Source: Aphanocapsa sp. GSE-SYN-MK-11-07L
Lineage (GTDB): Bacteria; Cyanobacteriota; Cyanobacteriia; Thermosynechococcales; Thermosynechococcaceae
Assembly (NCBI GenBank): GCA_019359715.1
Contig: JAHHGS010000083.1
Span: 1 to 64,000, forward strand
Reading direction: 5' to 3'
DNA: 64,000 nucleotides
Shown here: piece by piece, positions 61,153 through 64,000 of the stretch
Layout of the letters: every line of letters begins with the position of its first letter
Position numbering within the stretch: position 1 is the stretch's first letter
Notes under the pieces: generated by a model
The model's database searches: none
The model's input: only the letters and a program-made list of their open reading frames with translations
Told to the model about the DNA's origin: nothing
Translations under genes and position numbers: made by a program

Positions 61153-61479
61153 TCATTGTCCTGATTTTGAGAAGAAAACAAGATTTACCTTGCCAGTAAT
61201 CGGATGAGTTTGTGCTTTAGCACCTACTTGATAAACCGAGCGAATCAGTTCAGGCCAAAGTACTGTGGTAGGATTGCCTTGGGCAATTACCTGACCTTGG
61301 TTGAGTACATAGAGGCGATCGCAGTAAACGGCTGCCAAATTCAAATCATGGAGAGCTGCAATCGTCGTGATGCTTAATGTTTTCACCAATTCCATGAGTT
61401 CCAGTTGATAACGAATATCGAGGTGATTGGTCGGTTCATCGAGAATTAGAAGTTGCGGTTGTTGGGCGATCGCCCTCAT
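61153..61479 (-). pseudogene. ABC transporter ATPase fragment (FecE-like), N-terminus missing
   Basis: The 108-residue frame begins with MRAIAQQPQLLILDEPTNHLDIRYQLELMELV, that is, at the Walker B region; the Walker A, Q-loop and signature motif are absent. It continues with TIAALHDLNLAAVYCDRLYVLNQGQVIAQG and IRSVYQ, the H-loop and terminal part of the iron-siderophore/haem/vitamin B12 ATPase subgroup. Loss of the first 130 or so residues makes it non-functional. It lies next to a truncated S2P and a Zur-like regulated pair, indicating a rearrangement zone. Confidence 0.8.
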
Positions 61480-61575: not shown

Positions 61576-62526
61576 TCATCTTTCTTTCGGATATTGGATA
61601 ACCCGCTCACTGCCGCGCTGCCGCGTTTTAGGATTAATGCTGAACAAGCGGATATATTTACCCTGATGCTCATGCAGACAATCTTCTAGAACTGCGATCT
61701 CTTCTGCCTCGCTGGTTGTTTTAATTAGCCCACAGTCAGACCAAGAATTAGCTCGAAATCGCCTTGCATCAGCTTGCTCTATCCCAATGTAATATTTCTG
61801 ATTTAGCAAATTGCGAACCCAGATTAACGCATCAGAATTCAAAAGTGAAGAGCGATGACCATTGCCAGACCCATTCTGTCGCAAAAAGTCTGAGTGTTCG
61901 TTTGATTCATCACGGATGTTTGTAATGCAGACATCATCCTCAGCGCAGAGATACCCCTGCCGCAGTTTTTGATTGATACCAACGACATGACGGGCAAAGT
62001 TTGAATCCGATTCCTGGACATTGGGTAAGCGATCGGCTTGTTGTTGATGGATAATCACTGAGCCAGATGCCACGTATTTACCCGCCGAGATTTCCACATT
62101 TTCGATCAGCGCATGGGACATGACAATACAGCTATCCCCAACACGGGCATTGAATACCGTAGAGCGGAAGCCGATAAAACAGCCATTTCCCACATAAGCC
62201 GGCCCATGAATGAGAGCCATGTGGGTAATGGAGGCATTGTCGCTAATCCACACCGAGTAAAGTTCACCATCGTCTCCCGTGACTCGTCCTTGCTCTAACC
62301 CATGGATCACCACGCCATCCTGGATGTTCACGTTTGCGCCAATGTAGAACGGCATTCCCTCATCGGCTCGAATCGAGACTCCGGGTGCAATGTGAACCTG
62401 CGTACCAATTCGCACATCGCCAATCACATTGGTGAGCGGGTGGATGTAGACACTCGGATCGATCGCTGGCTCAACAAGTTGCTGTGACCAGGGTGTTGGC
62501 GGTGCAGGGATGGTATGGATGTCCAT
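61576..62526 (-). CDS. Short CcmM-like protein: gamma-carbonic anhydrase domain plus one RbcS-like domain
   Basis: The 316-residue protein has the gamma-CA left-handed beta helix: residues 50-180 with [21 protein letters not shown] and [15 protein letters not shown]. Zinc ligands are kept: His75 in VVIHG, His102 and His107 in THMALIHG. Cys194 and Cys200 ([10 protein letters not shown]) match the regulatory disulfide of CcmM. The C-terminus has a single RbcS-like domain (about 226-313: [24 protein letters not shown] to [12 protein letters not shown]) where carboxysome CcmM carries several. It lies outside any ccm cluster, and its promoter region holds a Fur/Zur-like palindrome. Confidence 0.85.
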
Positions 62527-62533
62527 GCTAATA

Positions 62534-62553
62534 TGAGAATGATTATTATTCTA
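62534..62553. promoter_or_regulatory. Fur/Zur-like palindrome between CcmM-like gene and cysS
   Basis: TGAGAATGATTATTATTCTA (62534-62553) is an inverted repeat AGAAT-N7-ATTCT and matches the general AT-rich Fur/Zur box (TGATAATnATTATCA-like). It lies eight bases upstream of the CcmM-like ATG and 48 bases upstream of cysS on the other strand. Zinc-responsive repressors bind such boxes in front of zinc-sparing paralogues. CysS and gamma-carbonic anhydrase homologues are both known members of COG0523/Zur-associated sets. Confidence 0.6.
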
Positions 62554-62600
62554 GATCTTACCCGAAAACATTACTCCAAAGTCGGCAACATTAATCTGTT

Positions 62601-64000
62601 ATGAGTCTTACTGTCTACAACACCCTGACTCGTCATAAAGAACCGTTTACCCCGATCTCGCCAGGTAACGTCACGATGTACTGCTGCGGTGTGACGGTGC
62701 ATGACGATTGCCATTTGGGTCATGCCCGTTCTTGCATTGGCTGGGATGTGGTGCGGCGATATTTACAATGGCGCGGTTATCAGGTGCGCTATGTGCAAAA
62801 CTTCACCGACATTGACGATAAGATTCTGAATCGGGCGAAGGCAGAAGGTAGTTCAATGCAAGCCATTGTCGATCGCTACATTGCTGCCTACTTCAACGAT
62901 ATTCGACAGTTAAACATCCTGGATGCGGATGAATATCCCCGTGTCACCGAGCATATTCCAGCGATTCATCAATTGATTCAGGCGCTTGAAGAAAAAGGCT
63001 ATGCTTATGCCATCAATGGCGATGTTTACTATAGTGTGCGGCAGTTTGCAGACTATGGCAAACTCTCTGGACGACAGCTAGAGCAGATGCAAGCGGGGGC
63101 AGGTGGACGGGTAGACCCCGCTGAGCCAGAGCGTAAGAAGCAAGACCCAGTTGACTTTGTACTGTGGAAATCTGCGAAGCTGGGTGAGCCTGCTTGGGAA
63201 TCCCCTTGGGGACAAGGGCGACCGGGCTGGCATATTGAATGTTCTGCGATGATCCGGGCGCGACTGGGAGAAACGATCGATATTCACGGCGGTGGTGGCG
63301 ATTTAGTGTTTCCGCACCATGAAAATGAAATCGCTCAGTCGGAAGTATTGACAGGTAAGCCTTTGGCAAACTATTGGCTGCACAATGGCATGGTGACAGT
63401 GAATGGCGAGAAGATGTCCAAATCTCTGGGCAATTTCACCACAATTCGAGCGTTGCTGGATGGCAACTGGTCAGAGTATCCACAGCCGATTGACCCGATG
63501 GTGATTCGGTTGTTTGTGCTGCAAGCCCACTACCGAAAACCATTAGATTTTGCCAAGGCGGCGATCGCGGCCGCCGAGAATGGATGGCAAACGCTCAAAG
63601 ATTCGCTGGCATTGGATTTGCAGCAATTGAATTTATCGTCGCCCATTCCCAGTGAACTGGATGCTGAATCGGTCAACCGTTTCCAAACTGCAATGGATGA
63701 TGACTTCAACACAGCGGCTGGACTGGCAGTGCTGTTTGAGCTAGCAAAAGCGCTCAAGCGAGAGTTCAATCTACGCTGCTATCAAGCGGAAAAAGAATGC
63801 TCTGATCTGCAATTTCAGACTTCATTGCAGACGCTCACCCGACTGGCGCAAGTATTCGGCTTAGAAGCCAGTAGAGAGACTGTTTCTGCACCAGAGTTTG
63901 ATGCTATTTGGATTGAATCACTGCTGCAACAGCGGCAACAGGCACGTCAGGAAAAATGCTATGCGGAGAGCGATCGCATCCGCAACGAACTGCAAGCGGT
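62601..64000 (+). CDS. cysS: Cysteinyl-tRNA synthetase (runs past window end)
   Basis: The gene starts ATG 62601 (MSLTVYNTLTRHKEPF) and is open to the last base (about 466 residues visible). The class I signatures are present: MYCCGVTVHDDCHLGHAR (HIGH-type), FTDIDDKI, GWHIECSAM, FPHHENEIAQSE and KMSKSLGNF. These include the usual zinc ligands (Cys in MYCCG, Cys in HIECSAM, His and Glu in HHENE). It charges tRNA-Cys. As it is divergent from the CcmM paralogue across a Zur-like box it may be the zinc-limited copy, although the zinc ligands are retained. Confidence 0.93.
   Translation, partial: MSLTVYNTLTRHKEPFTPISPGNVTMYCCGVTVHDDCHLGHARSCIGWDVVRRYLQWRGYQVRYVQNFTDIDDKILNRAKAEGSSMQAIVDRYIAAYFNDIRQLNILDADEYPRVTEHIPAIHQLIQALEEKGYAYAINGDVYYSVRQFADYGKLSGRQLEQMQAGAGGRVDPAEPERKKQDPVDFVLWKSAKLGEPAWESPWGQGRPGWHIECSAMIRARLGETIDIHGGGGDLVFPHHENEIAQSEVLTGKPLANYWLHNGMVTVNGEKMSKSLGNFTTIRALLDGNWSEYPQPIDPMVIRLFVLQAHYRKPLDFAKAAIAAAENGWQTLKDSLALDLQQLNLSSPIPSELDAESVNRFQTAMDDDFNTAAGLAVLFELAKALKREFNLRCYQAEKECSDLQFQTSLQTLTRLAQVFGLEASRETVSAPEFDAIWIESLLQQRQQARQEKCYAESDRIRNELQA

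Follow-up and report, generated by a model that had tools for sequence, protein, structure and literature searches.

A predicted Zur box shared by divergent genes for a short CcmM paralogue and a second cysteinyl-tRNA synthetase in a cyanobacterium

The divergent gene pair and its spacer

Two divergent genes, short ccmM and cysS2, were found in the window, which is the whole 64-kb stretch of DNA that was analysed. The gene on the minus strand (61576-62526) codes for a short CcmM of 316 aa, with a CcmM-type gamma-carbonic anhydrase (gamma-CA) domain and one SSUL (RbcS-like) domain. It scored 496.8 bits against the CcmM profile, slightly below the 550-bit cut-off for full CcmM, and its domain matches were Hexapep and RuBisCO_small. 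These matches bore out the earlier note, which had described a gamma-carbonic anhydrase with one RbcS-like domain. On the plus strand, cysS2 runs from 62601 to 64000 in the window and ends at position 64055 of contig C83. Its product of 484 aa (CysRS2) was also what that note had called it, a cysteinyl-tRNA synthetase. It is a full CysRS by the equivalog TIGR00435 (539.7 bits, cut-off 340), and the tree placed it as a second copy. The earlier reading implied another cysS and a full-length ccmM elsewhere in the genome, and both were found. The housekeeping cysS at C135 is 63% identical to cysS2, and the full-length ccmM lies at C81 (L125), inside the ccm cluster.

CysRS2 kept the HIGH and KMSKS motifs and the Cys/Cys/His/Glu zinc site. 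The zinc ligands H75, H102 and H107 and the cysteine pair C194/C200 were kept in all of the short CcmM proteins tested (13/13). A loss of zinc ligands in the style of HemB2 or DksA2 was considered for the paralogues and rejected, as the ligands were present in both products, in agreement with what had been claimed before.

A FecE/FhuC-type ABC ATPase remnant was identified by profile match on the minus strand at 61153-61479, outside the conserved unit. The idea that it was left over from a metal importer of the same unit did not hold. The fragment exists, but it is a C-terminal piece with in-frame stops upstream, and it had no counterpart in the related clusters, where its place is taken by hisI2 with COG0523 or by an ABC exporter. 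No close full-length copy was present in the genome, and the best other matches showed 37-49% identity. On sequence comparison, the fragment is regarded as unrelated debris.

The spacer between the two genes (62527-62600, 74 nt) carries the shared predicted operator. The palindrome AGAAT-N7-ATTCT was read directly at the place given for it in the earlier note, with AGAAT at 62536-62540, GATTATT at 62541-62547 and ATTCT at 62548-62552. It overlaps a Zur-type 7-1-7 box, TGAGAATGATTATTA, on the plus strand at 62534-62548, which was assigned by consensus match, matrix scan and conservation. This box lies 8-22 nt 5' of the short-ccmM ATG and 53-67 nt 5' of the cysS2 ATG. Both are part of an extended 21-mer, TGAGAATGATTATTATTCTAG (62534-62554, plus strand), in which two 7-1-7 motifs overlap. 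The window 21-mer is a degenerate TGAGAATGAT-T-ATTATTCTAG and resembles the near-perfect TGAGAATGATNATCATTCTCA of relatives, whose full 21-mer has the same two overlapping motifs and the same palindrome. No sigma-70 promoter was recognised when the 74-nt spacer was searched by consensus.

The cyanobacterial Zur box consensus is TGATAATNATTATCA. Four exact matches to it were found in the genome, and two of these adjoin Fur-family genes. The window box departs from it at 2 of the 14 defined positions, which would favour a chance palindrome between ordinary genes with no regulatory role. However, matrix and shuffle tests favoured a real site. The scoring matrix was built from 19 training boxes of zur, znu, thrS2, COG0523, hisI2, TonB or related genes, and every cysS2 and clade-A ccmM promoter was excluded from it. 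In the scan of the 64-kb window, the spacer site ranked first with 19.2 bits and the runner-up reached 13.1, scores that depend on the consensus because the training sites were chosen by resemblance to it. None of 20 shuffled windows had a site reaching 19.2 bits, and 1 of 20,000 dinucleotide-shuffled spacers matched the score of the window site.

Conservation of the box and of the duplicate genes

The tree of the short CcmM proteins showed two well-supported clades. Clade A includes the window protein, and clade B consists of family f13 and one uncultured bin, with f13 members beside hisI2 in two genomes. A single origin of all short CcmM was not rejected by the AU test (p 0.31). Orthologues of the window protein showed 72-80% identity and occurred across at least four families. 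All complete orthologues have a natural stop after one SSUL, in contrast to the several SSULs of the CcmM scaffold (M58). Their genes lie outside the ccm cluster and adjoin cysS2 or hisI2.

The box was present at 10 of the 10 readable clade-A short-ccmM promoters, which came from 8 genomes, and it lay at -22 from the ATG in 9 of them. Among these ten orthologous sites, the window box and the L045 box had the lowest scores. The full-length ccmM promoters gave no box (0/24), and only one was seen at housekeeping cysS promoters (1/19). In the source genome itself, neither the housekeeping cysS (C135) nor the full-length ccmM (C81) has an upstream box. Chance is a negligible explanation when the box stands at every readable clade-A promoter and is missing from nearly all housekeeping paralogues. 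Because the box is conserved, the chance reading is refuted in practice.

The box was also found at 9 of 11 cysS2 promoters. In genome G006, whose cysS2 promoter is box-less, a NicO-family transporter gene (L085:6182-6952), oriented in the cysS2 direction, separates the box from cysS2. The G372 copy of cysS2 showed no box within 250 nt upstream. The single housekeeping case, L111 in genome G015, has a Zur-like site 121 nt upstream of cysS, and one cysS was found in that genome. This site may be due to chance, may be the box of a neighbour, or may control the sole cysS copy. In family f13, hisI2-ccmM-short and a divergent gene have a box between them (L091:7464-7484 and L092:7881-7901). The divergent gene belongs to an unknown family, and the L092 copy had no Pfam match; the zinc exoprotein ZepA is suggested for comparison.

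The cysS2 clade was separated from the housekeeping cysS in the tree with support 100/100. Ten of the 11 genomes with short ccmM had at least two cysS genes, compared with none of the 13 others (Fisher p 5.6e-6, uncorrected for relatedness). The assembly of the eleventh carrier is incomplete, with short ccmM on a contig edge. Several of the carriers are MAGs. Sequence comparison suggests that short ccmM and cysS2 spread horizontally, because the short CcmM and CysRS2 proteins were more similar between families than the housekeeping copies were.

Zur-type regulators and the genes beside similar boxes

Two Fur-family proteins of the source genome, at C34 and C139, gave the Synechococcus Zur structure 7NE9 as the best match and were assigned as Zur-type regulators. 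An exact box lies upstream of the C139 gene. The region of this gene is duplicated (C27:995-1333 and C139:635-976). The C27 copy has a premature stop, and the exact box is upstream of both copies. The gene at C34 is a third Zur-type gene. In the source genome, a box was also found between znuA and znuCB (C68), and further boxes precede thrS2 and the TonB and COG0523 clusters (C137). The COG0523 cluster at C137 also contains hisI2 and a GTP cyclohydrolase I gene (PF01227). In relatives, the short-ccmM/cysS2 pair lies in or near clusters with hisI2, COG0523, the GTP cyclohydrolase I gene or zur. The assignment of a Zur-type box in the earlier note was thus supported, both by conservation and by the matching boxes beside Zur-type regulator, znu, thrS2 and COG0523 genes.

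The window box also looks like a Fur box, and the site overlaps a Fur-type palindrome. It might therefore be bound chiefly by Fur, or by Fur and Zur together, and the gene pair would then respond to a lack of iron or to metal stress in general. An apparent FurA is encoded at C13, cross-talk within the Fur family was described in Anabaena (PMC6103462), and a similar box at C29 precedes an AraC-TonB receptor unit that is possibly iron-regulated. However, most of the closest box matches, here and in relatives, adjoin zinc genes (zur, znuA, thrS2, COG0523, hisI2), and the position of the pair in or near zinc-gene clusters of relatives also argues against Fur. We consider such a response, with control chiefly by Fur or jointly by Fur and Zur, very unlikely, but Fur may bind the box as a second regulator.

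Downstream of cysS2 and in its orientation, WD40-repeat and FGE-sulfatase-type genes lie at C83:64074-66119 (L025:3575-5620). The WD40 gene may share an operon with cysS2, because it also follows cysS2 in several relatives. Just past the window, a Zur-type box TGAGAATGGTTATCA was observed at C83:66122-66136 (L025:5623), before a Pyr_redox_3 flavoprotein gene, which is three genes past cysS2 and whose product has CCDNDCLC at its end. Boxes were also present at its homologues in relatives (L043, L091, L092). By these sequence features, the flavoprotein is a possible undescribed Zur target.

Possible roles of the gene pair at low zinc

The spacer would be a bidirectional promoter region, and zinc-loaded Zur on the box would block both promoters. 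Upon zinc scarcity, Zur would release the box, and CysRS2 and the short CcmM would be made, the latter with a gamma-CA trimer domain and one SSUL per subunit. In Synechococcus, the divergent znuA and znuC are under a single Zur box (PMC9337993), and by this analogy zinc-loaded Zur on one box should shut both promoters. As a whole, Zur-repressed backup zinc enzymes made from a shared spacer gave the best explanation, with a probability of about 85%. Repression by Zur and induction on zinc starvation are highly probable from the known regulons. The cell probably induces both genes at low zinc, because the arrangement of box and gene pair recurs in several distantly related cyanobacteria.

Similar duplicates are known. 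In Proteobacteria, duplicates of CysRS, ThrRS, HisI and a gamma-class CA were found behind predicted Zur sites beside COG0523 genes, and the zinc ligands of the CysRS, ThrRS and HisI duplicates were conserved (Haas et al. 2009, PMC2770081). The CA of that study was described as gamma-class Cam, whereas the one described here is a cyanobacterial CcmM with an SSUL of the Rubisco-binding type, and it has one box in common with cysS2. The Zur regulon of Anabaena PCC 7120 includes thrS2, hemB2, folE2, COG0523, znuABC and TonB receptors (PMC6103462, PMC4787780). It belongs to the same phylum and has the same kinds of targets, including a spare aminoacyl-tRNA synthetase with the zinc ligands kept. 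However, its list has no cysS2 or ccmM paralogue, and the FolE-type gene here is of the GTP cyclohydrolase I family PF01227, unlike that of Anabaena. No report of a link between ccmM and Zur was found in the open-access literature, a coverage that left out most subscription papers. Zur-linked CysRS and gamma-CA duplicates are thus known from Proteobacteria, and a CcmM-derived one in cyanobacteria appears to be undescribed. A duplicated carboxysome protein in the Zur regulon would link zinc sensing directly with the CO2-concentrating mechanism.

The kept zinc ligands do not explain a gain at low zinc, and this was counted against the backup role. In Anabaena, thrS2 is repressed by Zur, and ThrRS2 has conserved zinc ligands and is active at low zinc, with a zinc affinity that is not clearly higher (PMC4787780). 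Because ThrRS2 keeps its ligands and works at low zinc, ligand retention itself is no argument against a backup role. By the same analogy, CysRS2 likely sustains the charging of Cys-tRNA when zinc is scarce, just as ThrRS2 sustains that of Thr-tRNA.

The short CcmM resembles the beta-carboxysome CcmM (M58; 3KWC, 7O4Z, 6HBA) in its gamma-CA domain with H75, H102, H107 and C194-C200, followed by SSUL1. In contrast to M58, it ends after one SSUL, as in the engineered S. elongatus gammaCAL-1S, and its gene has a Zur box upstream and is outside the ccm cluster. A CcmM with one SSUL thus occurs in nature, and its engineered counterpart is known from earlier work, in which homo-condensation was lost and co-condensation with CcaA was weak (PMC8580825). 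The short CcmM might still act as a scaffold or decoy, a trimer that carries three SSULs and, under stress, dilutes the carboxysome condensates or alters their shape. The SSUL domain is kept, as is an R-x7-D pair that corresponds to the salt bridge R164/D172 (PMC8580825). The second SSUL cysteine was missing in 8 of the 9 clade-A SSULs listed, and the window protein has both cysteines; in the clade-B SSULs listed, both were missing. The failure of gammaCAL-1S, which lost most of its CcaA co-condensation, argues against such a scaffold, as do the tested catalytic residues and the activating cysteine pair, which were kept even where full CcmM had lost the pair. We therefore regard the scaffold or decoy role as unlikely. 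A client rather than a scaffold is suggested, because gammaCAL-1S, which has the same layout, fails to self-condense. From its sequence, the chances are about even that the short CcmM is an active gamma-CA which is brought to Rubisco by the single SSUL and backs up the beta-CA CcaA.

The cysteine pair of the C194/C200 type is needed for the CA activity of CcmM (PMC9120777). The full-length CcmM of the source genome (C81) does not have this pair, nor does that of 6 of the 10 other short-ccmM carriers (three of one genus). Because the pair is missing, the C81 CcmM is probably not an active CA. One beta-CA of the genome has the tail LSPTQADRIY, which is similar to PEQQQRIY, the CcmM-binding peptide of CcaA (PMC8580825). 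The loss of the pair and this CcaA-like tail suggest that the housekeeping CcmM probably acts as a scaffold and CcaA as the enzyme, with the gamma-CA provided by the short paralogue.

Gamma-CAs may use iron (Haas et al. 2009, PMC2770081) or cobalt, and the short CcmM could possibly run on either. A more speculative and rather doubtful extension is that zinc starvation swaps the carboxysome CA. In genomes whose housekeeping CcmM is no longer an active gamma-CA and whose enzyme is the zinc-dependent CcaA, a Zur-induced, Rubisco-docking gamma-CA with one SSUL, perhaps using iron or cobalt, might then take over. If this were true, CO2 fixation would survive low zinc. With this pair, the way in which a photosynthetic cell guards its carbonic anhydrase at low zinc becomes open to experiment. 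Besides the CcaA-like enzyme, the genome encodes two further beta-CAs, which have signal-like N-termini.
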